From: Pseudomonas sp. BMS12
GTDB taxonomy: Bacteria; Pseudomonadota; Gammaproteobacteria; Pseudomonadales; Pseudomonadaceae
Direction: 5' to 3'
NCBI RefSeq assembly: GCF_001592875.1
Contig: NZ_LSOF01000030.1
Span: 1 to 64,000 of the forward strand
DNA: 64,000 nucleotides
Shown here: piece by piece, positions 41,991-61,476 of the stretch
Layout of the letters: every line of letters starts with the position of its first letter
Position numbering within the stretch: position 1 is the first letter of the stretch
The notes under the pieces: generated by a model
Told to the model about the DNA's origin: nothing
Database searches by the model: none
Seen by the model: only the letters and a program-made list of their open reading frames with translations
Translations under genes and position numbers: made by a program

Positions 41991-43457
<1,467 letters not shown>

Positions 43458-46248: not shown

Positions 46249-46320
46249 GTGGGAGCGGCTTTAGCCGCGATTGGGTGCGACTCGGAGTGCCCTGCTTATC
46301 GCGGCTGAAGCCGCATCCAC
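46249..46320. repeat. REP doublet at the end of the cassette array
   Basis: GTGGGAGCGGCTTTAGCCGC starts at 46249 and an inverted, slightly degenerate copy ends at 46320. Only 14 bases separate it from the last attC site. Confidence 0.85.
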
Positions 46321-46331
46321 TAGAGCGCTGC

Positions 46332-46402
46332 TTCGTTTGGTTAAGGGGGCCGGCTTTAGCCGGTCCCGAGTGAGCGAAGCGAGCGACTTGAACCAATTGT
46401 TA
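46332..46402 (-). repeat. attC site 13 (terminal, damaged outer core)
   Basis: The inner half starts with TAACAATTGGTTC (46402 downward) and the stem contains CGGCTTTAGCCG, but the outer GTTA core is replaced (AACGAAGC). Genomic sequence and the REP follow at once, so this marks the array end. Confidence 0.85.
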
Positions 46403-46414
46403 TAGGGAAATAAC

Positions 46415-46792
46415 TCAGCAGTTGATTCCAGCTCTTTTGGCGGCACGGTAGACGATTACAGTTATTGTTATAAAGACGACTGACATCCCGCAAAGAACAG
46501 GGTCAATTTTGCCCTTTGCTATATAAAAATAAATTGCTGCTGATACCATTACTGCGGAAAGCAGAAGCCAAACCATTACGCCGCTTGCTAGTTTGTTGGT
46601 TTTATATTGTCCTATGCCGTAGATTCGCTTTCCGCGCTCGTTCATTTCAATTATTTCTTTGGCATCCTGCTCGCACTCAGGAGAGCAGGCTATTCCTTTG
46701 GTGAATGAAATAGTGCATTCCATGCAAACGGCCTTATTGCAGGACTTGCAAATGCCTACGGCGTCAGTTCCTTTGTGTTCGAAGCACTGCAT
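46415..46792 (-). CDS. Cassette protein: N-terminal zinc-binding (B-box-like) motif plus two membrane helices
   Basis: The 125-residue product has eight potential zinc ligands in its first 40 residues: Cys3, His6, Cys15, Cys18, Cys23, Cys26, Cys36 and Cys40, spaced like a B-box or double zinc-ribbon. Two membrane helices follow (about residues 72-92 and 99-116). It may be a membrane-tethered adaptor. It is the most distal cassette gene, and codon use is AT-rich. No named family was recognised beyond the zinc motif. Confidence 0.72.
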   Translation of the reverse strand: MQCFEHKGTDAVGICKSCNKAVCMECTISFTKGIACSPECEQDAKEIIEMNERGKRIYGIGQYKTNKLASGVMVWLLLSAVMVSAAIYFYIAKGKIDPVLCGMSVVFITITVIVYRAAKRAGINC

Positions 46793-46806
46793 TTGAGTTT
46801 TTCCTA

Positions 46807-46876
46807 TAACGTTTGGTTAAGGGGCGGGCTTTAGCCCGTCCCAGTGAGCGAAGCGAACGGTTTGAACCAATTGTTA
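46807..46876 (-). repeat. attC site 12
   Basis: A 70-base site with TAACAATTGG and CCAAACGTTA ends and a GGGCTTTAGCCC stem core. Confidence 0.92.
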
Positions 46877-46928
46877 TGTGCTAGCACCCCCAGTCATCCT
46901 TCTCAAGATACGAATCAATTTCTTTGTG

Positions 46929-47294
46929 TCAAATAGATGCCTTTTCGCTATCTACTCCCCTCTTAGTGGGAAATTCCTCTCTAAGGGAAATCACATCACA
47001 GATTACAGGGTTAATGTCTGTGATTAGGTATGAGGTCGCCAAATAATCGAATTCTGAAAGTGTATGCGTGTGAGCGTCAATCAATGAGTCTGCGAGTTTT
47101 TCAGCTTTATCATAGTCGCGCTCTTTTATTGCGCGCTGAATTTTAGTGAAACCTTTTAAGTATGCTGCTTCGTATTTGAGGCGATCGTTAAATTCCAATG
47201 CAAAAAAAGCGTAAGAGGAAATTCCAACTCCGATTGCAATACATATGCATGCTCCAAGAGCGGTTGCTAAAGCCAAAATCACTTTTTGCTTCAT
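46929..47294 (-). CDS. Cassette protein with N-terminal membrane anchor, unknown function
   Basis: A 121-residue product with a signal-anchor or signal peptide (residues 4-33) and an alpha-helical remainder (residues 38-80) rich in charged residues. No family was recognised. The C-terminus lacks cysteines or an obvious catalytic motif. It stands alone in its cassette, with a 52-base gap before its attC. Confidence 0.65.
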   Translation of the reverse strand: MKQKVILALATALGACICIAIGVGISSYAFFALEFNDRLKYEAAYLKGFTKIQRAIKERDYDKAEKLADSLIDAHTHTLSEFDYLATSYLITDINPVICDVISLREEFPTKRGVDSEKASI

Positions 47295-47314
47295 GGAGTT
47301 ACCCCTCTAGCACA

Positions 47315-47384
47315 TAACGATTAAGCTAAGGGGCCGGCTTCGCCGGTCCCAGCGAACGGAGTGAGCGCTTTGAGCGCATTGTTA
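47315..47384 (-). repeat. attC site 11 (variant type)
   Basis: This 70-base site has TAACAATGCGCTCAAAG and CTTAATCGTTA ends and a GCCGGCTTCGCCGG stem. Its ends match sites 4 and 7 more than the common type. Confidence 0.88.
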
Positions 47385-47387
47385 GAG

Positions 47388-48158
47388 TTACAACTCCGCG
47401 TCCTTTTTGAGCTCCTCAATAATTTGGAGCCCCATGTAAATTGCTTCATGTGCATGAGGTTCTGAAACCTGTTGCGCATGAATGGCAGCGTTGCAAATTT
47501 TTAGAATGTAATCAAACGAACTTCGCATATGACTGTACTTTGGGTAGCTAACGGTTAGCTCCCTAAATAGCTGCCTTGCAGATAGAAATTTCTCCACCAT
47601 TTTTGATGGGTCTGGCGTGATAGTTCTTTTTCCAAGAATATTCCGGAGATTTTGCTCTAGCTCCATTCTTAGTTTTGCTAATGCGAAGTTGTAATCGCCA
47701 CCTGCTTGAGCAATAAATGCCGAAACATCGTCTTCTATTGTTCCTGGCTCATCAGGTTTTTCGATTGCCGCTTCTAGGTCTTCTTTGGCTTGGCGTGCTT
47801 CTTCTGGGTTCGGGTAATGTACGTTTACCGTTTGTTGTACTGTGTTTGAAATGGTGTTTAGCATGCTGCTATAAACACCAAGAAATTCTCTGGTTTCAGA
47901 TTTAAATTCTTTTACCTCGCCAGCAATTTTCTCAACTTCTTTTTCAAAAGAAATTAGTTTACCAATTGAAATTTTCTTGGCGATTGGGAGTAGCAGGAAA
48001 AATATTGAGAAAACAAGAAGGGTTAATGCAGTGGTTCCTATGTTCTCTGTAGGAGGGAACCCTATATTCGTGAGTGCCATTGCAAGAAGTGCACAGGCCA
48101 CTAGTCGACATAGAAATGGAAAAATATCGAATGATAGGATTTTTCCTATGGGTGGCAC
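47388..48158 (-). CDS. Cassette protein: two membrane helices, coiled coil and DUF4145-like C-terminal domain
   Basis: The 256-residue product has two hydrophobic helices (about residues 16-33 and 43-60), a predicted coiled coil (70-115), and an all-alpha C-terminal part (140-250). The ending (ILKICNAAIHAQQVSEPHAH then AIYMGLQIIEELKK) resembles DUF4145/HEPN-like domains. Such architectures occur in phage-defence and RNA-processing proteins, but no function is established here. Its stop lies 3 bases from its attC. Confidence 0.65.
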   Translation of the reverse strand: MPPIGKILSFDIFPFLCRLVACALLAMALTNIGFPPTENIGTTALTLLVFSIFFLLLPIAKKISIGKLISFEKEVEKIAGEVKEFKSETREFLGVYSSMLNTISNTVQQTVNVHYPNPEEARQAKEDLEAAIEKPDEPGTIEDDVSAFIAQAGGDYNFALAKLRMELEQNLRNILGKRTITPDPSKMVEKFLSARQLFRELTVSYPKYSHMRSSFDYILKICNAAIHAQQVSEPHAHEAIYMGLQIIEELKKDAEL

Positions 48159-48177
48159 GTAAACCTCCTTGTGACTC

Positions 48178-48248
48178 TAACGTTTGGTTAAGGGGCCGGC
48201 TTTAGCCGGTCCCGAGTGAGCGAAGCGAACGACTTGAACCATTTGTTA
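48178..48248 (-). repeat. attC site 10
   Basis: A common-type 71-base site with stem core CGGCTTTAGCCG; the inner end reads TAACAAATGGTTC. Confidence 0.92.
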
Positions 48249-48259
48249 TGTTCATGGCG

Positions 48260-48595
48260 CTACTGCCCATTTGCTAGATTTTCTGCTGTGTTTGCACTTG
48301 CGCCAATTACTTTTTCTAACAGTACAGGCAAGCTTGCTCCTAGGTACAAAGCAGCCAGCCAATCATTGATGCTGTTAAAGGCCACGGCAAATATCGTAAC
48401 GACTAAAGCTAGAAATGGAGTTAAAAGTGACTTTACAAGGAAAAATTCAAGATTTAGTTCTATTTTTAGCTGTGGCGGCATTTTTTGACGAGTTAGCAGG
48501 TCGTAGAAGAATGGAAAGAATCCGCCAAATGTGCCCGCGAGAACGTAAAGTATTTTTACTAGAGAAATACCAAAAATCAGGGTTTCAGTAGACAC
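48260..48595 (-). CDS. Cassette membrane protein, second gene of a two-gene cassette
   Basis: A 111-residue hydrophobic product with about three membrane helices (residues 6-28, 51-73, 76-95). It begins at a GTG that overlaps the end of the upstream cassette gene, so the pair is translationally coupled. A toxin/antitoxin or holin-like pair is conceivable, but no family match was recognised. Confidence 0.6.
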   Translation of the reverse strand: MSTETLIFGISLVKILYVLAGTFGGFFPFFYDLLTRQKMPPQLKIELNLEFFLVKSLLTPFLALVVTIFAVAFNSINDWLAALYLGASLPVLLEKVIGASANTAENLANGQ

Positions 48596-48893
48596 GATTT
48601 ATCACTGCCCCCATAAATTTTTCTTTTAATGAGGCTTTTTTCTTATAGTGCGTGCGTGTTGTTAATAGAGCCTCGCCGTTCTGTCCCTTTCTGAAAAGAA
48701 ATACTATTTCATCCGAGTGCTCTCGAACTGCCTTCTCTACAGCCTCAATGCTTACATGCGCCTCGTTGGACACACCTTTCAATGTGCGATATTTGTATTT
48801 CGGATTCTCTAGCGCCTTTTTTATCTCCTCAAATATTTGAGTTGAGTTTTTGTCTTTTTTCTTCCGTCTTACATTTGAAGGTTTCAGGCTCAT
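48585..48893 (-). CDS. Cassette protein, basic with predicted helix-turn-helix
   Basis: A 102-residue product with a very basic N-terminus (NVRRKKKDKN) and a predicted winged-helix-like middle (ALENPKYKYRTLKGVSNEAH then VSIEAVEKAVREH), followed by a basic tail. It may bind nucleic acid. The ATG at 48893 has GGAG seven bases upstream; a longer start at 48926 would begin inside the attC site. It overlaps the membrane-protein gene downstream, making this the only two-gene cassette in the array. Confidence 0.62.
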   Translation of the reverse strand: MSLKPSNVRRKKKDKNSTQIFEEIKKALENPKYKYRTLKGVSNEAHVSIEAVEKAVREHSDEIVFLFRKGQNGEALLTTRTHYKKKASLKEKFMGAVINRVY

Positions 48894-48925
48894 TTTTGCT
48901 CCATGCTTTGGGTGGAAGAGGAACA

Positions 48926-48995
48926 TAACGTTTGGTTAAGGGGCGGGCTTTAGCCCGTCCCAGTGAGCGCAGCGAACGATTTGAATCATTTGTTA
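48926..48995 (-). repeat. attC site 9
   Basis: A common-type 70-base site with core GGGCTTTAGCCC; its inner TAACAAATG end carries the stop codon of the receiver-domain gene. Confidence 0.92.
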
Positions 48996-49640
48996 GCTGG
49001 TGCTCTCTAGTGGCAGTAGGCTCAAAAGCGTTGTTCCGGATGATGTTATTTCAGTGACTCCTGCTGAAAGAGCCTCTTGGCGCATGTTTTTTGAGGCCCA
49101 GCTTCCGCAGTAGATATAAACGGGGACGTCGGAGTTATATGTTCTTATTTTCTCTGCTAAATCGATGCCGGCTCTGTCGTTTTCGGGTCTTCCCATGTCA
49201 GAAATAACTGCATCATATGTGCGATTTCTGAACTGTGAAATTCCATCAGTTGTCGTTAGCGCTATATCTACTTCGTGTCCGCGCTCTTGAAGAGTGGCAA
49301 CAAGAAAGCTGTTGTTCTTAGGGTTGTCATCCACCCAGAGGATACGTCTACGTGTGATTGTTGAGGGAGGGGGTTCTGACAGTGTTACTGTCTGCCCAGA
49401 CGCTAAGCTCCTCTCTAGCTCTGCAAGCTTTGATTGAATATCTGCGGTAATTATTCTTTGCTGCTCTGACGCCTCTTCAACGCTTAACTCGTTGTCGCCA
49501 ACTTTTATCGTGAGTTTTCGGCCGCGGAAGGAGTCAATGAGCCCTTTAAGAGGCTCAAAAAACTTGAATGAAAATATGGCGACTAATGCGGGCCAGGCCA
49601 GGTTGGCAAGAGCAGAAATTAATTCGGAAAAGCTCTCCAA
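48993..49640 (-). CDS. Cassette protein: membrane-anchored response-regulator receiver domain
   Basis: The 215-residue product has an N-terminal amphipathic/membrane helix (residues 8-28), a KLTIKVGDNELSVEEASEQQ linker and short coiled coil (60-80), then a receiver-like domain from RRRILWVDDNP (about residue 97). Acidic Asp-Asp in WVDDNP and Asp in AVISDMG (about residue 147) match phosphorylation-site positions. No output domain or partner kinase is present. Its TAA stop is formed by the attC inner end. Membrane-tethered receiver domains are unusual; defence-type signalling is one possibility. Confidence 0.72.
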   Translation of the reverse strand: MESFSELISALANLAWPALVAIFSFKFFEPLKGLIDSFRGRKLTIKVGDNELSVEEASEQQRIITADIQSKLAELERSLASGQTVTLSEPPPSTITRRRILWVDDNPKNNSFLVATLQERGHEVDIALTTTDGISQFRNRTYDAVISDMGRPENDRAGIDLAEKIRTYNSDVPVYIYCGSWASKNMRQEALSAGVTEITSSGTTLLSLLPLESTS

Positions 49641-49662
49641 TGTGGTGTCCTCTGTTGACAGC

Positions 49663-49734
49663 TAACGTTTGGTTAAGGGGCCGGCTTTAGCCGGTCCCGA
49701 GTGAGCGAAGCGAACGGCTTTGAACCAATTGTTA
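49663..49734 (-). repeat. attC site 8
   Basis: A common-type 72-base site, core CGGCTTTAGCCG, inner end TAACAATTGGTTCAAAG. Confidence 0.92.
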
Positions 49735-49998
49735 GAGCTTTTGCACATTGTAAAGCCCCACTTCATTGATGATTGGAAAGAAGTGACTTGCAATGAAAAG
49801 TGCTGCTAACACTGAAGCCAGGATGGCTACATTGATGCAGCACTCGGCAAAATGCGTCGATCCGGAACTTAGCATTTGCCCGATTAGGTATGCGACAGCC
49901 ACAACTCCTGGAGCAACTGCAAAGCTTGCTTCAAGAAAATATGATACGAGAGCGCTAAGTATTAAAAATGCTGCGAGGCTTAGGGCTGACACTCTCAT
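49732..49998 (-). CDS. Small cassette membrane protein
   Basis: An 88-residue hydrophobic product with an N-terminal helix (5-20), a second (27-45) and a third (57-75). No family was recognised. Its stop codon TAA is the start of attC site 8, so the reading frame runs to the recombination element. Confidence 0.6.
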   Translation of the reverse strand: MRVSALSLAAFLILSALVSYFLEASFAVAPGVVAVAYLIGQMLSSGSTHFAECCINVAILASVLAALFIASHFFPIINEVGLYNVQKL

Positions 49999-50011
49999 GG
50001 CTTGATTGCTC

Positions 50012-50094
50012 TAACGATTAAGCTAACGGGCGGACAAAAGCGCAGCTTTTGGACGTCCAGCGAACGAAGTGAGCGACAGTTGAGCGCATTGTTA
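50012..50094 (-). repeat. attC site 7 (long variant type)
   Basis: This 83-base site has an AAAAGC-GCAGCTTTT stem instead of the REP-like core. It differs from site 1 (53257-53339) at only about four positions. Confidence 0.9.
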
Positions 50095-50122
50095 GGCACT
50101 TCGCACATGAAGTAACAAGGCA

Positions 50123-50512
50123 TTACTCAATATCAATGTATTCGGTGTGTGCATGTATGCCGCAAGGGCAGCACTCTTTCGGCGACCAGCGGACGGCGAT
50201 ATAGGGCTTTCCATTTCCCTTCTTTTCTACTGTGAATTCTGCGCTAGCCGCCTCAGATGTGAAGCTGGGTTTAAGCGTTTCGTACGGTTCGGAAGTGGAG
50301 ATGCCTTTAGCGTTACTCTCGGTATATGCGAGAATTATTATTGGATCATCTAAATCTTCCAGCTTTCGCGGGACTGTGACTCTGTACTTGTTTAAGCCAG
50401 AAAGCTTTTCAAGCTTTATTAGGTCGTCAAATTCTTGCCCGCTCCTTGGTGCGTAGCATGCTAGAGAGGCTTGTGAGAGCAGGAGGCTGATAATGATTAT
50501 GAGAGTACGCAT
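50123..50512 (-). CDS. Secreted cassette protein of unknown function
   Basis: A 129-residue product with a clear signal peptide (residues 1-19, MRTLIIIISLLLSQASLAC). The mature part has four or more cysteines, including ECCPCGIH near the C-terminus, which could bind metal or form disulfides. The lipobox is not canonical (SLAC), so it may be periplasmic or a lipoprotein. No known family was recognised. Confidence 0.65.
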   Translation of the reverse strand: MRTLIIIISLLLSQASLACYAPRSGQEFDDLIKLEKLSGLNKYRVTVPRKLEDLDDPIIILAYTESNAKGISTSEPYETLKPSFTSEAASAEFTVEKKGNGKPYIAVRWSPKECCPCGIHAHTEYIDIE

Positions 50513-50520
50513 GTTTTGCC

Positions 50521-50590
50521 TAACGTTTGGTTAAGGGGCGGGCTTTAGCCCGTCCCAGTGAGCGCAGCGAACGATTTGAACCACTAGTTA
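50521..50590 (-). repeat. attC site 6
   Basis: A common-type 70-base site, core GGGCTTTAGCCC; its inner end TAACTAGTGG carries the TAG stop of the next gene. Confidence 0.92.
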
Positions 50591-51060
50591 GGTATTTTCT
50601 TGCAAACCAACTCCAATGCTCCGCATAACACTATCGCAATCAGGATGTATTTATCCTTTGGCTCCAACCCTTGATATTTAGATATCCCTGATTCGGGAAG
50701 CTGCTTGCGAGTTTTGTCAAGAGAAACTTGCAGAACTTTCTTATCGTTCTCGCCAAGGCATGCGTATAAATTATTTACATCTTGCGCTGAGATTACTGGC
50801 CGAAGATTGTGAGCAAAATCATTTCGCAATGTACCTAGAGCGTTCAAAGGTTTTTCAAGGCGAGAGTCAAGCCCTAGAGAAATAGCTAGCTTAATCGTGT
50901 CGTGATAATCTAATTTTATCTTCTTGTAATGCGCGATACTTTCCAGTTTTGATTCAATAATTTTATTTAAATATTGCTCAACAATTATATGGGATCGTAT
51001 GACAACGCCAAGGTCATCTTCACCCTGAAGGGTGTTTAATAAATCTGACTTGAGTTCCAT
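50584..51060 (-). CDS. Cassette HEPN-like protein (RNDFAH motif)
   Basis: A 158-residue mainly alpha-helical product. The motif Arg79-Asn-Asp-Phe-Ala-His84 matches the Rx4-6H signature of HEPN ribonucleases and MltR/DUF4145-type domains, after a helix GVVIRSHIIVEQYLNKIIES. A hydrophobic C-terminal segment (136-152) may insert in the membrane. HEPN proteins are frequent RNase toxins and defence effectors. The TAG stop falls inside attC site 6. Confidence 0.7.
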   Translation of the reverse strand: MELKSDLLNTLQGEDDLGVVIRSHIIVEQYLNKIIESKLESIAHYKKIKLDYHDTIKLAISLGLDSRLEKPLNALGTLRNDFAHNLRPVISAQDVNNLYACLGENDKKVLQVSLDKTRKQLPESGISKYQGLEPKDKYILIAIVLCGALELVCKKIPN

Positions 51061-51069
51061 GTCTATACC

Positions 51070-51139
51070 TAACGTTTGGTTAAGGGGCCGGCTTTAGCCG
51101 GTCCCAGTGAGCGGAGCGAGCGATTTGAACCAATTGTTA
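51070..51139 (-). repeat. attC site 5
   Basis: A common-type 70-base site, core CGGCTTTAGCCG. Confidence 0.92.
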
Positions 51140-51142
51140 TGC

Positions 51143-51565
51143 CTAGGTTATTTTAGACCAAGCATTTTCTAACGAAATTATTTGCTCACTGCCGTTCAAG
51201 TCTTGAGGTATGTACCATGACCTAGACTTATTTGTTCGGTCTGGGTTTTCTGCTGAAAGCAGATTTTCAATTTCTTGTTTGGTGCAAACCAAATATCGAC
51301 TATGTGGCTGTTTAAGATTTAAAAGAACGACAACTAGAAAGTCAAATTTTAAGCTGTTGCTTACTGTGACAGTTCGTTGGTCTTTCTCAGGCCATCCAAT
51401 GGTTTTAACTTGAACTCTTTGAATGCTCTGGCCGGAAATTACTACAATATCCCAACCTTTTTGTGTTGGGCCATGTGCAATATATGCTTCATGGCCGCGC
51501 TTAAGAAGCTCAGCTAAAATAAGGCTCTCGCCGATTGCACATTTGACAGATTTATCTATTTCCAA
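51143..51565 (-). CDS. Cassette PD-(D/E)XK nuclease-like protein
   Basis: A 140-residue protein with a restriction-endonuclease-like core: Glu13 and Glu19 in AIGESLILAELLKRG, Asp39 in KGWDIVV, and Gln52-Val-Lys54 in RVQVKTIG. This matches the E...D...(E/Q)xK active site of PD-(D/E)XK enzymes of the type found near homing and defence loci. Strands and helices follow in the right order. No methylase or immunity partner is present in the cassette. Confidence 0.72.
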   Translation of the reverse strand: MEIDKSVKCAIGESLILAELLKRGHEAYIAHGPTQKGWDIVVISGQSIQRVQVKTIGWPEKDQRTVTVSNSLKFDFLVVVLLNLKQPHSRYLVCTKQEIENLLSAENPDRTNKSRSWYIPQDLNGSEQIISLENAWSKIT

Positions 51566-51598
51566 TTTAGACTCTTACTTAGTGGGGCGCACGAGGCA

Positions 51599-51645
51599 TA
51601 ACGTTGGAATTCAGCCGCCCGCATTAGCGGGTAGGCTGGGATGAC
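51599..51645 (-). repeat. attC site 4 (degenerate)
   Basis: Only the outer half is clear: CCAACGTTATGCC on the minus strand, with a small CCGCCCGCATTAGCGGG-type stem. No matching inner TAACAA end was found, so this site may be non-functional or of a divergent family. Confidence 0.6.
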
Positions 51646-51669
51646 TTTTTATGCCGCAACTCCTTCATT

Positions 51670-52182
51670 TTATGATCTTGCGGCATTTGACCATTTCTTT
51701 AGGGTGCGCCGCTCTTGTTGAACAAGACGTACTCGCCACATAAAGTCTATGAGCAATATTGCTACGGCGAAGTTAAACCTTACTCTCTCGTTTGATGAGG
51801 ACTCTAATTCTGCTGGGCCCAACCAAGGTAAATTTTTGCATAGATCTTTTATGTTTTGGGATTCGAAGCTAACGCCTTTCCAGCTATGGCCAAACTCATT
51901 CCTTATTTTTCTTATTATATTTAATTCTTCATACTCATTTTTCTGAATAAGGCCCATTGCGAATGCTGCTTTAATTCTGGAAGAGAATGTGCCAAGAGGA
52001 GCATTAAAGCCATCTATTAGCTCTGCTGCATCGCGGCTTTCTATTAGAAATGCCGAAATTATTTCTCCCAGCCTTTCATCTAGATATGAGCCTGCCGTTA
52101 ATACTGCTCCGCGATCACTTTCATCGTTAAACTCTTTAAGAAAGTCAGCAAGATCTTTGTATTCTGGGAGTAACTCACTCAT
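51670..52182 (-). CDS. Cassette MltR-like HEPN protein
   Basis: A 170-residue protein similar to the mannitol repressor MltR family: ESDRGAVLTAGSYLDERL, NAPLGTFSSRIKAAFAMGLI and the motif Arg94-Asn-Glu-Phe-Gly-His99 in RKIRNEFGHS. MltR itself has a HEPN-like fold and no classic DNA-binding domain; many relatives occur as orphan defence-type genes. No mannitol genes are nearby, so a mannitol role is unlikely. It is followed by the degenerate attC site 4. Confidence 0.78.
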   Translation of the reverse strand: MSELLPEYKDLADFLKEFNDESDRGAVLTAGSYLDERLGEIISAFLIESRDAAELIDGFNAPLGTFSSRIKAAFAMGLIQKNEYEELNIIRKIRNEFGHSWKGVSFESQNIKDLCKNLPWLGPAELESSSNERVRFNFAVAILLIDFMWRVRLVQQERRTLKKWSNAARS

Positions 52183-52200
52183 CTCTCGGCCTCATCGGCA

Positions 52201-52271
52201 TAACGATTAAGCTAAGGGGCGGGCTTTAGCCCGTCCCAGTGAGCGAAGCGAACGATTTGAGCGCATTGTTA
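52201..52271 (-). repeat. attC site 3
   Basis: A 71-base site with TAACAATGCGCTC and CTTAATCGTTA ends and core GGGCTTTAGCCC, a hybrid between the common type and variants 11 and 7. Confidence 0.9.
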
Positions 52272-52862
52272 TACGACATCGTTACATTCTGTACTGACTA
52301 TTTTGTTAAGCAACTTTCTAGCGGACTTTATATCGTTGTATAGCTCTTGAAAAAATGCTATGCCATGGTGCTCGCGTGCTCTAAGAAGTGAGAGATCAAA
52401 ATCTTCACCCTTTGTACTTACAGGGTATTTTAGACTTTGGAAGTAAAAGTCCATAGTGATGTCAGATGCTTTGCAGAATTCTTGGATTACTAAAGGAGAT
52501 TTATCTAGATGAATATATTTTCCGTAAAAGCAAAGTAGCTCTTCGGATTGGTAAAGTTCACTTACTGCTTGCAGCAATTCGGTAAGTTTGTGATTTTTTT
52601 CGATTTCATTACCTTTGGCCAATATTAGGGATTTTAGGCTTAGCTCAATGCCATGGTAAAAATTAAAGAGAACTGGTTCGGCTATATTGGAGTCCGACCA
52701 TTTTGTATGTTCTTCGAACTCTTCATCGCTTGGCCAGTGCCAGCCTTCGTAAGACATGGAGCTAAAATTTCCAGCTTTAATCAATTCGGATGAAGCGTTA
52801 AGAGTAAGCTGCCAAAAATTAAGACAGAGTCCGTAGAATCGTATGGCTTGAAATTTATCCAA
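52269..52862 (-). CDS. Cassette HEPN-like protein without catalytic motif
   Basis: A 197-residue all-alpha product. LFNFYHGIELSLKSLILAKG (residues 65-84) followed by KNHKLTELLQ (89-98) is typical of HEPN-fold proteins related to nucleotidyltransferase partners and substrate-binding HEPN domains. The Rx4-6H ribonuclease motif is absent, so it may bind rather than cut. Its stop TAA is part of attC site 3. Confidence 0.65.
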   Translation of the reverse strand: MDKFQAIRFYGLCLNFWQLTLNASSELIKAGNFSSMSYEGWHWPSDEEFEEHTKWSDSNIAEPVLFNFYHGIELSLKSLILAKGNEIEKNHKLTELLQAVSELYQSEELLCFYGKYIHLDKSPLVIQEFCKASDITMDFYFQSLKYPVSTKGEDFDLSLLRAREHHGIAFFQELYNDIKSARKLLNKIVSTECNDVV

Positions 52863-52881
52863 GGTTCAGCCCTTGTTCGTA

Positions 52882-52952
52882 TAACGTTTGGTTAAGGGGC
52901 CGGCTTTAGCCGGTCCCGAGTGAGCGAAGCGAACGGCTTGAACCAGTAGTTA
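52882..52952 (-). repeat. attC site 2
   Basis: A common-type 71-base site, core CGGCTTTAGCCG, inner end TAACTACTGG. Confidence 0.92.
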
Positions 52953-53249
52953 GGTGAACCATCGCCACCTACTAGAAATGCCGGAATATGCTTTTTCTGC
53001 TGTGTTCTTAACCTGTTCAATTGAGTCTCCGCCACCAGCGGCAAGGACCTCCCACTGCTCATTGCAATAGAAAAGGAGATAGTCATCCTCTCCTGGGTTC
53101 TGGCATATAGAGAGTTTTGGTACCGGCCCTATAAGGTTTCCATCTACGTATGTGGAAATTCTGCCTGTATAGGTAACAGATTCATCAACTATGGCAAAGG
53201 CTATTACCTTCGCGGAGTCTTGAGTGGCGGGCGGCTTAGGTCTGTCCAT
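52950..53249 (-). CDS. Cassette hypothetical protein
   Basis: A 99-residue soluble product with a beta-rich centre (DDYLLFYCNEQWEVLAAGG) and a C-terminal helix SIEQVKNTAEKAYSGI. I recall similar short proteins scattered in Proteobacteria without assigned function. Its TAA stop falls in attC site 2. Confidence 0.65.
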   Translation of the reverse strand: MDRPKPPATQDSAKVIAFAIVDESVTYTGRISTYVDGNLIGPVPKLSICQNPGEDDYLLFYCNEQWEVLAAGGGDSIEQVKNTAEKAYSGISSRWRWFT

Positions 53250-53256
53250 GGTTACC

Positions 53257-53339
53257 TAACGGTTAAGCTAACGGGCGGCCAAAAGCGTAGCTTTTGGACG
53301 TCCAGCGAACGAAGTGAGCGACAGTTGAGCGTATTGTTA
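53257..53339 (-). repeat. attC site 1 (long variant type)
   Basis: An 83-base site nearly identical to site 7, with an AAAAGC-GTAGCTTTT stem. Confidence 0.9.
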
Positions 53340-53352
53340 GGAGATGCATGCA

Positions 53353-53805
53353 CTAAGCTCCGCTTTCATGAAAATAGCGACGCCACTCGGCCATGCATTC
53401 TTCGGCCAATGCAAAGCAACACTCTTCTCCACGCTCTGTCTCTATTTTGGCCTCGTCAAGGCTCTCTATTGCACCGCCTGGGTAGGGGAGGATTGTGCTT
53501 GTTGATTTTAATTTAAATACCCCTAGCTCCGAATTGCTTCTATGTTTGCGCAGCTTGCCATGTTTTAGCGTATTGCATATGTCGGCGCAGACCCTTAGAG
53601 CGGGGCTAGAATTTATAAATACTTCAACATCGTTGAATGATGAATATTCTGGACTTTCTTTGATCCAGTCTTTTAGGTGGTAGCAAATTTCAAAGAAGGA
53701 GAAGAGCTCAAACTCAGTATTTCCACCGAACTGTGGGGATATTCCTTCTCGAATCGGACGGAGCTTGTTGTACTGATACTGGAGTCTGGCGCGCTGATAT
53801 TCCAC
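53353..53805 (-). CDS. First cassette: HEPN-like protein with LKDW and DxxNTLKH motifs
   Basis: A 150-residue product with FFEICYHLKDWI (residues 37-48) and ALRVCADICNTLKHGKL (69-85), a motif pair seen in a large family of HEPN-like bacterial proteins of unknown function. It begins at GTG 53805, and the AGGAG ribosome site is part of the GTTAGGAG core at 53811-53818, so the integration core supplies translation signals. As the promoter-proximal cassette it should be the best expressed. Confidence 0.68.
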   Translation of the reverse strand: MEYQRARLQYQYNKLRPIREGISPQFGGNTEFELFSFFEICYHLKDWIKESPEYSSFNDVEVFINSSPALRVCADICNTLKHGKLRKHRSNSELGVFKLKSTSTILPYPGGAIESLDEAKIETERGEECCFALAEECMAEWRRYFHESGA

Positions 53806-53810
53806 AGCTT

Positions 53811-53920
53811 CTCCTAACTAGTGTTTATACGACATGCCTAGGTCTAGGCATTGTGTTTGATACTGGGTGCAATGTCCGAATCTAGGCATGTTTTATATCC
53901 ATATATAGCCATCCGCTCCC
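53811..53920 (-). promoter_or_regulatory. Array 5' edge: core site plus palindrome, possible attI/Pc region
   Basis: GTTAGGAG (minus, 53818-53811) is an integrase-type core. Just beyond lies a perfect inverted repeat ATGCCTAG-GT-CTAGGCAT (53834-53851), and CTAGGCAT recurs at 53882-53889 in direct orientation. TATAAA (minus) near 53824-53829 could be a -10 box for cassette transcription, but no good -35 is present. No integrase gene follows; the TetR gene starts its coding end at 53921. Confidence 0.45.
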
Positions 53921-54541
53921 TTACGCATCCAACCCAATCCCCCTCAGCACCACCCCCGTCACCGTCTGCACCGCATGTTCGAACTGCAGATCCGACAGCG
54001 CCTGGTCATCGTTGAGCAGGGCGATCTGGTAGTTGAAGTCAGCGTAGTGCTGAGTCGAGGCCCAGATCAGGTACAGCAGGTAGTCGGGCGCCACAGGCAG
54101 GATGCGTTTGCTGTCGACCCATTCGCGGATCTTGGCTTCCTTGAGCTTGGCCCAGTCGTAGAGGGCTTCGCGCAGTTTTTCGCCGAGGATCGGGGCGTTC
54201 TGCATCACTTCGCTGGCCCACACCTTGGAGCCGTGAGGGCGCGTGCGCGAGTGGTTCATCTTGGCGCGGATGTAGGTGGTGAGCACCACGCGCGGGTCGT
54301 CGTAGAGTTCGAAGCACAGGGCGTCCTGCTTCCACACGTCGAGCAGGTTGAACAGCACGGCGCGGTACAGCTCTTCCTTGGTCTTGAAGTAGTAGTGCAG
54401 GTTGGATTTGGGCAGTTCGACCAGTTGGGCGATGTCCTGCATGGCGGTGCCGGCGAAGCCGCGTTCGGCGAAGACCTGTTCGGCGGCGAGGAGAATCTTT
54501 TCGGTGTTCTTCAGACGGATGCCGAGCTTGCGGTTGGTCAT
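53921..54541 (-). CDS. TetR-family regulator, RutR-like
   Basis: A 206-residue regulator with an N-terminal helix-turn-helix (ILLAAEQVFAERGFAGTAMQ then DIAQLVELPKSNLHYYF) and a RutR-type C-terminal ligand domain. E. coli RutR senses uracil and controls pyrimidine breakdown. P. aeruginosa, from memory, keeps a similar TetR gene beside its preT/preA/dihydropyrimidinase genes. Here it lies between the cassette array and tsx and is the likely binder of the YTGTC-N6-GNCAR sites at the pyd, tsx and BMP promoters. Confidence 0.85.
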   Translation of the reverse strand: MTNRKLGIRLKNTEKILLAAEQVFAERGFAGTAMQDIAQLVELPKSNLHYYFKTKEELYRAVLFNLLDVWKQDALCFELYDDPRVVLTTYIRAKMNHSRTRPHGSKVWASEVMQNAPILGEKLREALYDWAKLKEAKIREWVDSKRILPVAPDYLLYLIWASTQHYADFNYQIALLNDDQALSDLQFEHAVQTVTGVVLRGIGLDA

Positions 54542-55490: not shown

Positions 55491-55529
55491 TCACATGCTC
55501 CTAAAGGATCGGGGTCGGTTTCTCTGAAC

Positions 55530-55545
55530 CTGTCTTATTGGTCAG
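55530..55545. promoter_or_regulatory. RutR-like operator, tsx site 1
   Basis: CTGTC-TTATTG-GTCAG, with TGTCTTATTGGTCA matching the BMP site TGTCTTGTTGGTCA at 13 of 14 bases. It lies between the sigma-54 promoter and the gene. Confidence 0.6.
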
Positions 55546-55557
55546 CCTTTTCCCTTG

Positions 55558-55574
55558 AGCAAGAACGCTGCCAA
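55558..55574 (-). promoter_or_regulatory. Sigma-54 promoter of the tsx-like gene
   Basis: On the minus strand TTGGCAGCGTTCTTGCT has TGGCA and TTGCT boxes with GG and GC 12 bases apart, an excellent match to TGGCACG-N4-TTGCW. Its -12 lies about 70 bases upstream of the start codon. Confidence 0.75.
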
Positions 55575-55577
55575 TTC

Positions 55578-55593
55578 CTGTCGAAATGGACAG
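55578..55593. promoter_or_regulatory. RutR-like operator, tsx site 2
   Basis: CTGTC-GAAATG-GACAG is immediately upstream of the -24 element. The BMP promoter has TTGTC-GAAATG-GTCAA with the same six central bases. Confidence 0.6.
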
Positions 55594-55771
55594 AAATCGT
55601 CAAAAGTCTTGGCTTTTTTCCGTGCTTGCCGGGAGAGCCGCGCCACGGCCGGTGCCGCTGGGTAGCGGCGTCGGTCAATCCTTCCGGGGCGGGGGCTGGC
55701 AGCGCCGGTCAAGGCGCTGCGGATGCCACACAATGGCGCAGGTTGGCGCCTTCATGTAGCGGGGCGGTGCT

Positions 55772-55912
55772 TAGAGCCTGTTCAAAGGCTGCTGTGCGTC
55801 GGGTCTGCTGCGTTAAAAGCAGGCTCTGATGCTCATTTACTCTTTGTAAACTGCGCTTCTTCGTCTGCTTTTGCCTTGCATACCGCTAGCTCGCGAGCCT
55901 TTGGTTCAGGCT

Positions 55913-55915
<3 letters not shown>
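55772..55915. mobile_element. 144-bp inverted-repeat (MITE-like) element abutting add
   Basis: The ends TAGAGCCTG (55772-55780) and CAGGCTCTA (55907-55915) are exact complements, and the repeats extend through AAAGGCT/AGCCTTT with a few changes. The right end supplies the TAG stop of the add gene. Elements starting AGAGCCTGTT with GCTGTGCGT are, from memory, widespread in pseudomonads. Confidence 0.6.
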
Positions 55916-57217
<1,302 letters not shown>

Positions 57218-58183
57218 TCAGCCCTTGGCCTCTTCCCTGCGGTAAGCATAGGTGTCGGCGAAGCGCGAGAGCATGTAGGCGCTGCACGATACCGGCGGGT
57301 ACTTGGCGGGGCTGTCGGCGCTGGAGCAGTTGGGCAGGCAGCTGATCTCGGTATCCGGATGCGGCTCGGCGAAGAACGGCATGGAGTAGCGGTCGACACC
57401 CAACGGGCTGATGACCCGGTGCGGCGTGGACTTGTACCGGTCGTTGCTCCAGCGCGCCATCATGTCGCCGATGTTGACCACGTAGGTGCCTTCGATCGGC
57501 GGCGCGTCGATCCACTCGCCGTTGACGTTCTGCACCTGCAGGCCGCCGGCATTGTCCTGGTACAGCAGAGTGATGCAGCCATAGTCGGTGTGCGCGCCGG
57601 CGCCCGGTTGATCGGCGCTGCTGGCGGCCTGCCGGGGCGGGTAGTGGATCATGCGCAGCACGCTGATCGGCTCGGCGAAGCGCTGGTCGAAGAAGTCTTC
57701 CTCGATGCCCAGGGCCTCGGCCATGGCGCGCAGCAGCGTCAGCGACAGGGCGTGCATGTCTTCGTAGTGGCCCTGCATCAGCGCCTGCCAGCCGGGAATG
57801 TCAGGGTGGCGGTTGGGGCCGCGCAGGGGCTTGCCGGCCAACACGTCGGGGTGTTCGGCCGCCATGTGGAAACCCATGTCGAAGGTTTCCTTGAAGTCGC
57901 TGGGCTGGGTCGGGTCGAGCTGCTCGGTGGCGATGGCGCCGTAGCCGCGGTGGTGGGCGCTCTGGGTGATGTCGATGCGCAGTTTTTCCTCGGCCGCGCG
58001 GGCGAAGAAATCCTCGGCGGCGGCTTTCAGTTCGGCGATGCGCGAGGGGGAAATCGGGTGGCCCTTGATGTAGTAGAAGCCCCATTCGCGGCACGCGGCG
58101 TCGATCTGCCGGGCCACGGCCTGACGGGCGGCGGGGTCGTTCTGGTACAGCGGGGCGATGTCGATGATGGGCAGTGAGTTCAT
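57218..58183 (-). CDS. 2OG-Fe(II) oxygenase, isopenicillin-N-synthase-like
   Basis: A 321-residue non-heme iron oxygenase. The facial triad is His198, Asp200 (GAHTDYG) and His255 (STPHRVISP), and Arg265-Tyr-Ser267 binds the co-substrate carboxylate. Relatives include IPNS, ethylene-forming enzyme and plant-type hydroxylases. Its conserved place beside a purine deaminase and BMP importer suggests oxidation of a nucleobase or nucleoside, but the substrate is not established. It begins at 58183 behind AGGAG. Confidence 0.85.
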   Translation of the reverse strand: MNSLPIIDIAPLYQNDPAARQAVARQIDAACREWGFYYIKGHPISPSRIAELKAAAEDFFARAAEEKLRIDITQSAHHRGYGAIATEQLDPTQPSDFKETFDMGFHMAAEHPDVLAGKPLRGPNRHPDIPGWQALMQGHYEDMHALSLTLLRAMAEALGIEEDFFDQRFAEPISVLRMIHYPPRQAASSADQPGAGAHTDYGCITLLYQDNAGGLQVQNVNGEWIDAPPIEGTYVVNIGDMMARWSNDRYKSTPHRVISPLGVDRYSMPFFAEPHPDTEISCLPNCSSADSPAKYPPVSCSAYMLSRFADTYAYRREEAKG

Positions 58184-58334
58184 GGTTGCTCCTGGAAGGT
58201 CTAGGTGCTGCGAGTCTTCTCGTACCCAGGGCAGCGGAAAGGGCGCCGGGGCGCCCTGGTGCGCGGTTCTTTCTCTGGGGAAAGGGACGGCGCGGTGGTG
58301 CTTGGTGGTGCTTGGTTTTGCTGTGTGGGCTTGT

Positions 58335-58407
58335 GTGGGAGCGACTTCAGTCGCGATCAGGGCCGACGCGGAGTGGCCTGGTTTATCGCGGCTAAAGCCG
58401 CTCCTAC
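58335..58407. repeat. REP doublet
   Basis: GTGGGAGCGACTTCAGTCGC (from 58335) faces a copy ending GCGGCTAAAGCCGCTCCTAC at 58407, just after the BMP gene. Confidence 0.85.
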
Positions 58408-58416
58408 AAGTGTTGC

Positions 58417-59499
58417 TTACTTCGGCAACTCGGCAGTGATGCCTTTGACGTAGTAGTTCATGCCCGCCAGTTCGGCGTTGCTGGCGGTGGCGCCGGCTGC
58501 AATCTTGACCGTGCCGCTCTGGTCCATGATCGGGCCGGTGAACGGGTGGAAGGAGCCATCCTTGATGCTGGCGATGATGGTTTCGGCTTCAGCCTTCACG
58601 TCAGCCGGTACCAGATCGCTGATCGGCAGTTCGATGGTGCCTTCAGCCAGGCCGCCCCAGTAGTCCTGGGGTTTCCAGGTGCCGTCCATGACCGCCTGGG
58701 CGCTCTTGATGTAGTGCGGGCCCCAGTTGTTGACGATGGAGGTCAGCACGGCCTTCGGGCCGAAGTGGGCCATGTCCGAGGCGTAGCCCACGGCGTACAC
58801 GCCACGGCGCTCGGCGGTCTGGATCGGCGCCGGGCTGTCGGTGTGCTGGAACACCACGTCCACGCCCTGGTCGATCAGGGCGTTGGCGGCGTCGGCTTCC
58901 TTGCCCGGGTCGAACCAGGAGTTGACCCACACCACCTTGATCTCGGTGCCGGGGTTGTACTTGTCCAGGGCCAGCTGGATGGAGTTGATGTCGCGGATCA
59001 CTTCCGGGATCGGGAAGGAGGCGATGTAGCCGATCTTCTTGCTCTTGGTCATCTTCGCGGCGAGGTAGCCGCCGACGTAGCGACCTTCATAGGATGTCGA
59101 CAGGTAGGTGCCGAGGTTCTTGTCCTGCTTGTAACCGGTGGCGTGTTCGAACGTCACTTTCGGGAACTGTTTGGCGACCTTGGCGGTGGGGTTCATATAG
59201 CCGAACGAGGTGGTGAACACCAGGTCGTAGCCCCCCTTGGCCATGTTGCGGATAACGCGCTCGGCGTCAGCGCCCTCGGCGACGTTCTCGACGAAGCTGG
59301 TTTCCACCTTGTCGCCGAACTGCTTGATCAGCGCCTGGCGGCCCTGCTCATGCTGGTAGGTCCAGCCGTGGTCGCCGATCGGGCCGACATAGACGAAGCC
59401 GACTTTCAGCGGGTCGGCGGCGGAAGCGCTCAGCACGGTGCTGAAGCCAATGGCGGCGGCCAGGCCGCGCAGCAGGTTCTTGCTCTTCTTCTGGTGCAT
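58417..59499 (-). CDS. BMP-family ABC substrate-binding protein (nucleobase/nucleoside importer)
   Basis: A 360-residue periplasmic protein with a signal peptide (residues 1-27, ending LSASA) and the Bmp/Med fold: VGFVYVGPIGDHGWTYQHEQ, and GYIASFPIPEVIRDINS in the middle. Relatives deliver purine nucleosides or bases to the permeases and double ATPase encoded at 60397-64000. The ATG at 59499 fits the sigma-54 start about 45 bases upstream. It precedes the oxygenase and add genes in the same direction. Confidence 0.88.
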   Translation of the reverse strand: MHQKKSKNLLRGLAAAIGFSTVLSASAADPLKVGFVYVGPIGDHGWTYQHEQGRQALIKQFGDKVETSFVENVAEGADAERVIRNMAKGGYDLVFTTSFGYMNPTAKVAKQFPKVTFEHATGYKQDKNLGTYLSTSYEGRYVGGYLAAKMTKSKKIGYIASFPIPEVIRDINSIQLALDKYNPGTEIKVVWVNSWFDPGKEADAANALIDQGVDVVFQHTDSPAPIQTAERRGVYAVGYASDMAHFGPKAVLTSIVNNWGPHYIKSAQAVMDGTWKPQDYWGGLAEGTIELPISDLVPADVKAEAETIIASIKDGSFHPFTGPIMDQSGTVKIAAGATASNAELAGMNYYVKGITAELPK

Positions 59500-59555
59500 C
59501 TGGGGGTGTGCTCCTGGTGGTCTTGTGTGGTGGCCGTGTCGGGCTGCCTTCTCAT

Positions 59556-59572
59556 TGCAAAAAATTGACCAA
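59556..59572 (-). promoter_or_regulatory. Sigma-54 promoter of the BMP gene
   Basis: On the minus strand TTGGTCAATTTTTTGCA has TGG and TTGCA boxes at the correct 12-base GG-GC spacing. The -24 half overlaps a RutR-like site. Confidence 0.7.
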
Positions 59573-59580
59573 CAAGACAA
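59565..59580. promoter_or_regulatory. RutR-like operator, BMP site 1
   Basis: TTGACCAACAAGACAA matches the E. coli RutR consensus TTGACCA-NN-TGGTCAA fully in the left half and partly in the right. It overlaps the -24 box, so binding would block the promoter. Confidence 0.65.
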
Positions 59581-59636
59581 CTGATTGAGGAAATCCGCTG
59601 TGCCGCGAATTTCGCTGCATGCGGAGTTGGATAAAG

Positions 59637-59652
59637 TTGTCGAAATGGTCAA
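59637..59652. promoter_or_regulatory. RutR-like operator, BMP site 2
   Basis: TTGTC-GAAATG-GTCAA has the 5-6-5 layout with perfectly complementary outer TTG/CAA bases. It lies about 65 bases upstream of the -24 element. Confidence 0.6.
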
Positions 59653-59680
59653 AGACGGCGCACGGAAAAATTGGCTGGCT

Positions 59681-59692
59681 TGAAACTGGTGC
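59681..59692. promoter_or_regulatory. TGAAACTGGTGC motif, copy 3
   Basis: It shares 11 of 12 bases with the two copies between the pyd operons and lies about 110 bases upstream of the -24 element, a normal distance for an NtrC-type enhancer. Confidence 0.45.
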
Positions 59693-59718
59693 AGGGCGAT
59701 TGTGGTCGGTGGATTGCT

Positions 59719-59787
59719 ATCGCGACTGAAGTCGCTCCCACAGGGTTGGGAGCTGGTGCTTTTGTGGGAGCGGCTTTAGCCGCGATG
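59719..59787. repeat. REP doublet (REPIN) upstream of the RAYT gene
   Basis: ATCGCGACTGAAGTCGCTCC opens the pair and GCGGCTTTAGCCGCGATG closes it; the downstream REPIN at 60301-60367 has the same arms and order. Confidence 0.9.
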
Positions 59788-59827
59788 AGGCCGGCCTATA
59801 CTGCGCAGACCTATCTGGAGCAATGGA

Positions 59828-60292
59828 ATGCCCCAAGCCCGTAAACCTCACTCAGGCAATCTGCGCATCGGTCGCTATTCGGCAGCGCAGCAGCTGTATC
59901 TGCTGACAGCTACCACACATGATCGCCTGCCAATCTTCACCGACTTCACTTGTGCCCGCCTGCTGATCACTGAGCTGCGCCAAACCCAGTGCGATGGCTT
60001 GGTGGAGTCGCTAGCCTGGGTCGTCATGCCGGATCACTTTCATTGGCTGGTGAGCCTGCGTAGCGGTTCGTTAGAGCAGCTCATGCAGCGGGTGAAGGGG
60101 CGTAGTGCACGGCAACTGAGCCTGGAGTTGGGCCAATCCGGGACGATCTGGCAGAGCGGCTTTCATGATGGCGCTGTGCGGCGGGAAGAAGATGTGCAGG
60201 CTGTGGCCAGGTACATCGTGGCCAATCCGTTGCGGGCCGGGTTGGTGCAGCGGCTTGGCGACTATCCGTTCTGGGATGCGGTGTGGCTCTGA
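59828..60292 (+). CDS. REP-associated tyrosine transposase (RAYT, Y1 family)
   Basis: A 154-residue HUH single-strand transposase. His70 and His72 in VVMPDHFHWLV form the metal-binding HUH site, and Tyr129 in ARYIVANPLRAG is the nucleophile. RAYTs recognise REP hairpins and are thought to spread REPINs without moving themselves. Matching REP doublets flank the gene on both sides. The unit sits between the BMP gene and the permease genes and is oriented opposite to them. Confidence 0.92.
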   Translation: MPQARKPHSGNLRIGRYSAAQQLYLLTATTHDRLPIFTDFTCARLLITELRQTQCDGLVESLAWVVMPDHFHWLVSLRSGSLEQLMQRVKGRSARQLSLELGQSGTIWQSGFHDGAVRREEDVQAVARYIVANPLRAGLVQRLGDYPFWDAVWL

Positions 60293-60300
60293 GCTGGCCT

Positions 60301-60367
60301 CATCGCGACTGAAGTCGCTCCCACAAGGCACGACTTGGATTTTGTGGGAGCGGCTTTAGCCGCGATG
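60301..60367. repeat. REP doublet (REPIN) downstream of the RAYT gene
   Basis: This has the same two arms and orientation as the copy at 59719-59787, with a different spacer. Confidence 0.9.
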
Positions 60368-60396
60368 CTTTTCTAGCTCTCAGGCCACGAGGGCTC

Positions 60397-61323
60397 TCAA
60401 TGCCCCGCCCGCCACGGCTGGCCCAGCGATACCGGGGCATACAGGCGGGTCTTGATCGCGTCGCGCGAGAGGATCACCAGCACCACGATGGTGGCCACGT
60501 AGGGCAGCATGGCCAGCAGGTTGGACGGCACGCTCAGGCCGATGCCCTGGGCCACCAGGTGGAGGATGCTGGCCAGGCCGAACAGGTAGGCGCCGAGCAG
60601 TACGCGCATCACCCGCCAGCTGGCGAACACTACCAGGGCCAGGGCGATCCAGCCGCGCCCGGCGCTCATGTTTTCCGCCCACATCGGCGTGTAGGCCAGC
60701 GACAGGTAGGCACCGGCCATGCCGGCCATGGCACCGCCGAACAGCACGGCCAGGGTGCGTACGCGCATCACCGGCAGGCCCATGGCGCTGGCGGCGTCGG
60801 GGTTCTCGCCGACGGCCTGGATGATCAAGCCCAGGCGGCTTTTCAGCAGGACCCAGGCGATCAGGGCGAACAGAGCGAAGGACAGGTACACCAGCACATC
60901 CTGGTTGAACAGCATGTGGCCGAGCAGGGGAATGTCGCTGAGCAGCGGGATGGCCACCGGCTCGAAGCCGGCCAGCGGCTTGCCGACCCAGGCGGCGCCG
61001 ACGAAGGCCGACAGGCCGATGCCGAAGATGGTCAGGGCCAGGCCGGTGGCCACCTGGTTGGCCTGGCAGCCGAGGGCGACCAGGGCGAACAGCGAGGCCA
61101 GCAGCATACCGGCCAGGCAGGCCAGCAGCACGCCGAACCACAGGCTGCCGCTGGCGAAGGCGACGATAAAGCCGATCACCGCGCCGAACAGCATCATGCC
61201 TTCCTGGCCGAGGTTGAGTACGCCGGTCTTCTCGCAGACCAGTTCGCCGAGGGCCACCAGCAGCAGCGGCGTGCCGCAGCGCACCATGGCGTAGAGGATG
61301 TTGCTGACGAGATCGAGATCCAT
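60397..61323 (-). CDS. ABC permease 2 of the BMP-type importer
   Basis: A 308-residue inner-membrane protein with about eight helices and the CEKTGVLNLGQEGMMLFGAV motif typical of the nucleoside/ribose permease class (YufQ/NupC-like). It works with the permease at 61477 and the double ATPase at 62588. The ATG at 61323 gives MDLDLVSNILYAMV as in family members. A REP doublet lies between it and the other permease gene. Confidence 0.88.
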   Translation of the reverse strand: MDLDLVSNILYAMVRCGTPLLLVALGELVCEKTGVLNLGQEGMMLFGAVIGFIVAFASGSLWFGVLLACLAGMLLASLFALVALGCQANQVATGLALTIFGIGLSAFVGAAWVGKPLAGFEPVAIPLLSDIPLLGHMLFNQDVLVYLSFALFALIAWVLLKSRLGLIIQAVGENPDAASAMGLPVMRVRTLAVLFGGAMAGMAGAYLSLAYTPMWAENMSAGRGWIALALVVFASWRVMRVLLGAYLFGLASILHLVAQGIGLSVPSNLLAMLPYVATIVVLVILSRDAIKTRLYAPVSLGQPWRAGH

Positions 61324-61385
61324 AGTTGTAGCCTCAGGCTGCACGCGCGGGGCGGCAGGGGGAAAGGGGGGCAATTCGGTGGTAC

Positions 61386-61459
61386 GTGGGAGCGGCTTCA
61401 GCCGCGATGTCTTTCGCAGGCACCGAGGTGGCCCCAATCGCGGCTGAAGCCGCTCCCAC
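61386..61459. repeat. REP doublet inside the importer operon
   Basis: Perfectly matched arms GTGGGAGCGGCTTCAGCCGC (from 61386) and its complement (to 61459) lie between the two permease genes; a stem here could set their relative mRNA levels. Confidence 0.9.
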
Positions 61460-61476
61460 AAAAAGAACGGTGTGCA

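Follow-up and report, generated by a model that had tools for sequence, protein, structure and literature searches.

Work on TetR repressors has mostly concerned sigma-70 promoters, and sigma-54 promoters have mostly been treated as switches that answer to an activator alone. In Pseudomonas, the hutU gene has a sigma-54 promoter that is activated by NtrC/CbrB and repressed by HutC (PMC8871633). RutR regulons of Proteobacteria are known (PMC5343134), and PA0166 of P. aeruginosa, an NCS2 permease, carries purines (PMC11633122). A ChIP-seq study includes PA0167, and its targets could bear on the promoter question raised here (PMC13086498). In the literature covered, mainly open articles, no Tsx-like gene of Pseudomonas is described as having a sigma-54 promoter, and no account of the promoter type of PA0165-PA0167 was found.

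The window analysed here is a stretch of 64,000 nucleotides from Pseudomonas sp. BMS12 (contig NZ_LSOF01000030.1). It contains a Tsx-like gene preceded by a sigma-54 element that lies between two palindromes; these elements, their spacing and their conservation in related genomes are described below, together with the regulation that they suggest.

Genomic context of the Tsx-like gene

The genes that bear on the promoter are the following:

42018 to 43457, plus strand: dihydropyrimidinase-like gene of the pyd cluster, named by resemblance
53921 to 54541, minus strand: gene of a RutR-like TetR protein (PydR-like), 157 bp downstream of tsx, PF08362 164 bits
54699 to 55490, minus strand: Tsx-like outer-membrane channel gene, 263 aa, PF03502 Channel_Tsx 57.8 bits (cut-off 27.2)
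55913 to 61461, minus strand: purine-nucleoside cluster upstream of tsx, with adenosine deaminase, 2OG-Fe oxygenase, BMP-type binding protein and ABC permease genes

The first-pass annotation had called the channel a nucleoside porin, and the PF03502 score agrees with a Tsx-like channel; against the NCBIfam Tsx subfamily the protein reaches 23.2 bits, below the cut-off of 311. The minus-strand order is ABC permease, BMP-type binding protein, 2OG-Fe oxygenase, adenosine deaminase (ada), Tsx-like channel and TetR. Beyond the end of the window the cluster goes on with an ATPase, a second RutR-like TetR (G000:C24:64468-65061, hereafter the cluster TetR) and an NCS2 permease, all named by resemblance. 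The reductive pyrimidine (pyd) cluster occupies 38.7-46.2 kb and includes, also by resemblance, amidohydrolase and permease genes (38704-41498) and dehydrogenase subunit genes (43570-46208).

About 7.7 kb of mostly unidentified genes (46209-53920) separate the TetR gene from the last of the pyd genes. In L166, a close relative, this distance is about 2 kb, so an insertion of about 5.6 kb in the window, or a loss in L166, is likely. PADLOC returned no match for six genes at 50-54 kb. After ada, at 55774-55912, comes a stretch that resembles a repeat and has inverted ends (GAGCCTGTTC...). L166 has nothing that corresponds to it, and it has the look of a small repeat that was inserted. The genome also carries a second Tsx-like gene (67%; L157, G000:C17:29000-43000), whose surroundings include an NCS2 permease, a guanine-deaminase-like gene and a RutR-like TetR; there is no sigma-54 element just upstream of this second Tsx-like gene.

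The sigma-54 element

The promoter region comprises three elements:

55530 to 55545, minus strand: proximal candidate operator CTGACC-AATA-AGACAG (CTGTC-N6-GTCAG pattern), about +3 to +18, over the start site
55558 to 55573, minus strand: -24/-12 sigma-54 element TGGCAGCGTTCTTGCT, GG and GC 10 bp apart, TGGC...TTGC letters present
55578 to 55593, minus strand: distal candidate operator CTGTCC-ATTT-CGACAG (CTGTC-N6-GACAG pattern), about -46 to -31, abutting -24

Read on the minus strand from 55574 to 55558, the element is TTGGCAGCGTTCTTGCT and matches 10 of the 12 fixed letters of the sigma-54 consensus, TGGCACG-N4-TTGCW. Counting 12 from the GC of the -12 element places the predicted transcription start at about 55547. 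The first-pass annotation had reported a -24/-12 pair at 55558-55574 on the minus strand, and its letters and coordinates are correct; the spacing of GG and GC is canonical for sigma-54. A single match in the window is weak evidence when taken alone, because about a third of shuffles also yield one (30 of 100, with 0.38 matches expected). Genome-wide, the pattern TGGCA-N6-TTGCW has 32 matches against six for the reversed control. Thirty of these matches became loci, and glnA and flagellar genes were recognized by eye among the genes behind them; many others sit where no obvious promoter would be expected. The genome has a single rpoN gene.

The conservation of the element is more informative. 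A Tsx-like relative (E<=1e-20, paralogues included) occurs in 116 of 119 genomes of the same genus, and the sample compared consists of 80 named tsx loci among the matches listed of one scan. Among these, TGG[CT]-N7-TTGC is present within 330 bp upstream of the gene in 49, while gaps of 5, 6, 8 and 9 give 0, 1, 0 and 0 loci; the 49 are upstream matches alone, and the counts for the wrong gaps and for the composite pattern below also took in-gene matches at +28. One of the 49, L190, has its element at -317, away from the conserved place. The element followed by TGWC-N6-GWCA, that is, promoter plus operator, is found in 40 of the 80 listed loci and not once in 1.0 Mb of flanks. In the 31 listed loci without the element, tsx comes right after ada in eight and after an oxygenase gene in three, where it may use the promoter of its neighbor; an upstream operon could account for part, not all, of these loci. 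The loci L068-L079, with promoters like those of the P. migulae and P. mandelii loci, have the element and the left operator half at the same place. Judged by this conservation, the predicted sigma-54 promoter upstream of the Tsx-like gene is as good as certain, and the pair first described in the window is conserved in many of the relatives.

Two palindromes flanking the promoter

The palindromes lie on either side of the -24/-12 element, with 48 bp from start to start, and all letters and coordinates that the first-pass annotation had given for them are right. CTGTC-N6-GWCAG occurs in the window in six strand-matches (four places) against 0.27 expected, and none of 100 shuffles reaches six. 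Two of the four places belong to the pyd intergenic region (41707 and 41969), where one has this form:

41969 to 41984, plus strand: like operator CTGTCTTGCGCGACAG, upstream of the dihydropyrimidinase gene

Across the genome, CTGWC-N6-GACAG has 25 strand-matches and its reversed control 17, so that one palindrome by itself is weak evidence. At the pyd promoters, ahead of the dihydropyrimidinase gene, CTGWCA-N4-TGWCAG or a near form was seen by eye in many of the 29 relatives inspected; the tsx promoters show CTGACC-N4-NGACAG. More palindrome-like stretches, CTGTCCGATCGGTCGG and CTGTCCTTCGCGTCAG, are present in the permease-dihydropyrimidinase gap of the window (41603-41722). An identical 16-mer, CTGTCGAAATGGACAG, at G000:C8:85583 was considered as a second regulon member and rejected, as it is inside an open reading frame, away from any nameable gene start.

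Two classes of spacing are found among the matches listed. Ten relatives form a short class, with both palindromes 48-50 bp apart as in the window (L166, L167, L170-L173, L176, L179, L183 and L184), and in the long class, of 23 loci, the two operators are 131-157 bp apart. Over the 11 sequences formed by the window and the short class, column identity is 0.95 for the -24/-12 element and 0.94 for the proximal palindrome, with 0.55-0.61 in the rest. The earlier reading of TetR-type operators on both sides of the promoter is supported, and we infer that the palindromes are operators of this kind.

Proposed mechanism

We propose, as the probable reading, a sigma-54 promoter that depends on a distant activator, with NtrC as the best guess, and that is blocked by a RutR-like TetR repressor on two operators until a nucleobase-type ligand releases it. 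A distant enhancer-binding protein would be needed for sigma-54 transcription of the Tsx-like gene, and the guess of NtrC would make nitrogen limitation the cue. In the clade of the window, the repressor would occupy one operator over the start site and another against the upstream edge of -24; by its geometry, this arrangement would leave the sigma-54 RNA polymerase boxed in by the bound repressor. A nucleobase-type ligand would then free the repressor and so release the polymerase. Production of the channel would probably require both the firing of the activator and the relief of repression by a nucleobase-type signal. The TetR that binds, its ligand and the role of NtrC are the interpretive parts of this proposal. 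With a conserved promoter of this AND-NOT type controlling an outer-membrane channel, many Pseudomonas species would couple their sensing of nucleobases to their nitrogen status.

The upstream dyad and the activator

Farther upstream of the promoter there are two overlapping dyads:

55724 to 55740, minus strand: NtrC-spaced dyad TGCGCCA-N3-TGTGGCA, about -177 to -193, candidate enhancer
55734 to 55751, minus strand: overlapping dyad AGGCGCC-N4-TGCGCCA, centre 169 bp upstream of the -24 element

When the sequence ahead of -24 was searched for dyads without bias, with the long class sampled (10 of 30), TGGCGCA-N4-TGCGCCA turned up in eight of the 11 short-class sequences, and the best of one shuffled set was three. 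A conserved dyad lies 105-180 bp upstream of -24 in eight of the ten short-class relatives (115-180 bp for TGGCGCA-N4-TGCGCCA in its eight), and is kept though the upstream gene varies, being ada in some relatives and the oxygenase gene in others.

The NtrC consensus dyad is TGCACCA-N3-TGGTGCA, and YGCGCCA-N3-TGNNGCA, present in eight of the ten short-class relatives, agrees with it in 10-11 of 14 letters. The dyad of L166, to which that of the window is identical in letters, has 11 of the 14, and the glnA sites of this genome have 11 and 10. The mean best NtrC score is 10.4 in the ten short-class relatives and 9.1 in the long class, where CGCACCAA recurs, against 8.2 for shuffles in each case; the rows scored are those of relatives, apart from the loci of L240-L245 that carry the element. 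This score is a soft yardstick, not very selective; five other sigma-54 promoters of the genome, with regulators not assigned, also give best scores of 9-11, and a first scan with shuffles detected nothing above chance in the window (p=0.18). Genome-wide counts are of little help: TGCAC-N7-GTGCA with at most one mismatch has 135 matches per strand (28 for its reversed control), a number too high to be useful, and TGGCGCA-N4-TGCGCCA with at most two has 132 per strand against 10, being common in this GC-rich genome. A second dyad pattern scored beside the NtrC consensus came from the same sequences, and its scores are circular.

The prediction of the first-pass annotation that the gene is induced under nitrogen limitation is plausible. 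Control by NtrC, and hence by nitrogen, would fit the conserved NtrC-like dyad, and the poorly selective score leaves NtrC as a candidate activator only. The strongest competing view, that CbrB or another activator drives the promoter in response to carbon limitation or a specific compound and not to nitrogen, is possible, though we give it less than even weight. The genome has 16 strong activator genes, none of them on this contig, and in P. putida CbrB binds in vivo near pydP (PP4035; PMC6296734). The spacing of the upstream dyad, on the other hand, is that of NtrC. The CbrB hexamer TGTTAC/GTAACA is absent from 55491-55912, although CbrB sites are loosely conserved according to that study (PMC6296734).

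Which TetR could be the repressor

The adjoining TetR gene was also noted in the first-pass annotation, and its PF08362 score confirms a RutR-like protein. Against the RutR equivalog TIGR03613 it reaches 161 bits and not the cut-off of 368, so it is a relative of RutR and not RutR itself. Orthologues (65-74%) are present in 76 of 118 other genomes examined. By hand count over 119 genomes, the protein and dihydropyrimidinase occur together in 74, are both lacking in 41 and are discordant in four, and in L158 the gene adjoins the pyd genes in the same order as in the window; for this linkage and co-occurrence we call it PydR-like, a name of convenience.

The earlier suggestion was that this protein alone is the repressor of pyd as well as of tsx, with uracil or thymine as its signal. 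It has in its favor that the gene is adjacent to tsx and co-directional with it, that the pyd promoter in the same window has a palindrome of the same type, and that the nearest solved relative of the protein is RutR of E. coli. Against it, the PydR-like protein is missing in nine of the 15 genomes with promoter plus operator, among 23 genomes searched (G120, G123, G124, G125, G134, G135, G136, G138 and G140); the first four of these are among the ten relatives that keep both palindromes 48-50 bp apart. Its gene is within 3 kb of tsx in one of the 80 named loci among the matches listed (L166), and L172, which lacks the protein, has operators nearly identical to those of the window and of L166. 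Moreover, dihydropyrimidinase has no sigma-54 element within 600 bp upstream in any of 30 loci, unlike tsx and the ABC operon. We therefore consider it unlikely that the PydR-like protein acts alone; of the pyrimidine signal first predicted, the PydR-like character of the neighboring TetR stands, and the rest is weakened by its absence from so many genomes with the promoter and by the place of tsx in a purine-nucleoside cluster that has its own RutR-like TetR.

Three further RutR-like TetR proteins of the genome (the cluster TetR, C34 and C17) were compared with that of the window. The recognition helix LPK[SA]NLHYYF is common to the PydR-like, cluster and C34 proteins, and C17 has LPKPNVYYYF; with helices so nearly identical, the PydR-like protein, the cluster TetR or both could bind. 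In G119, G120, G122, G124 and G125, and probably also in G123, a RutR-like TetR of 41-43% takes the position of the cluster TetR and shares a contig with tsx, at a distance of about 7-10 kb; no such linkage was seen in the other four short-class genomes. In G136 and G138, which have other layouts, this TetR is about 20 and 14 kb from tsx, respectively.

The ABC operon adjoining the cluster TetR has a -24/-12 element of the TGGCCA type with CTGACY just upstream of -24; this comparison covered eight loci, chosen because they had a sigma-54 element. The ATPase gene of the operon shows TGGCCA...TTGC with CTGACY before -24 in L049 (about 2164-2178), L254, L257, L258, L266 and L271. Also in L049 (5252-5493), the region common to the NCS2 permease gene and a divergent binding-protein operon carries the palindrome CTGACG-N4-GGTCAG and, on either strand, sigma-54-like elements.

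Since the PydR-like protein is often absent, the ABC operon has a sigma-54 element with a half-operator and dihydropyrimidinase has no such element, the purine-linked cluster TetR, alone or jointly with the PydR-like TetR, is the likelier repressor on sequence grounds. The derepressing ligand may be a purine.

Operator layouts

The two-operator proposal gives a role to the distal palindrome. That this site belongs to an activator or is inert, with the proximal operator alone being of importance, seems to us decidedly unlikely. It is the less conserved of the two (column identity 0.79), it shifts by about 100 bp between clades, and the strict pattern does not find it in seven of the 40 promoter plus operator loci among the matches listed; it nevertheless carries the same motif as the proximal site in the other 33 of these 40. 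It is most improbable that the sigma-54 element is a chance resemblance inside a promoter of another type, since its fixed spacing and conservation in tsx loci across dozens of species contradict simple chance, even if a single match in 64 kb is found in about a third of shuffles.

The long-class spacings fall at 131-133, 142-143 and 152-157 bp, in steps of about one helical turn. Phasing over the 23 loci gives R = 0.86 at 11.0 bp, and 0.75 over distinct values; with the short spacings added, R = 0.38. These loci are relatives of one another and form three clusters, so that the phasing is suggestive only; spacing classes of about 132, 143 and 154 bp, one turn apart, would fit looping.

A wider generalization, offered tentatively and doubtful at present, is a genus-wide module in which RutR-like TetR repressors would gate the sigma-54 promoters of nucleobase uptake in two geometries. 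In the clamp, the operators would be 48-50 bp apart on both sides of -24/-12; in the loop-like form, they would be 131-133, 142-143 or 152-157 bp apart, enclosing or covering the enhancer. If this holds, comparing both geometries inside a single genus would reveal how an enhancer-driven promoter can be controlled by a classical repressor, and the two natural operator layouts suit testing how repressors stop the polymerase at such promoters.

Comparison with known systems

HutC is a repressor of the GntR type, not TetR. Otherwise the locus resembles hutU (PMC8871633) in the sigma-54 promoter, the distant NtrC sites (here candidate), the pathway repressor that leaves with its ligand (here predicted) and the role in nutrient uptake or catabolism. 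It differs from hutU in that the target is an outer-membrane channel and in that the palindromes flank -24/-12 at fixed places. The likeness to E. coli RutR and the RutR regulons of Proteobacteria (PMC5343134) lies in a TetR with a TetR_C_3 domain, a link to pyrimidine catabolism and a palindromic operator. Unlike RutR, the window protein scores under half of the equivalog cut-off (161 of 368 bits), and the target promoter is of the sigma-54 type; the operator letters also differ from those of the RutR site.

PA0165-PA0167 of P. aeruginosa comprise a Tsx-like gene beside an NCS2 purine permease and a RutR-like TetR. The same neighborhood is found at L155 and L156. The parts are thus ordinary, and their combination in a repressor-flanked sigma-54 promoter on a Tsx-like gene looks new.
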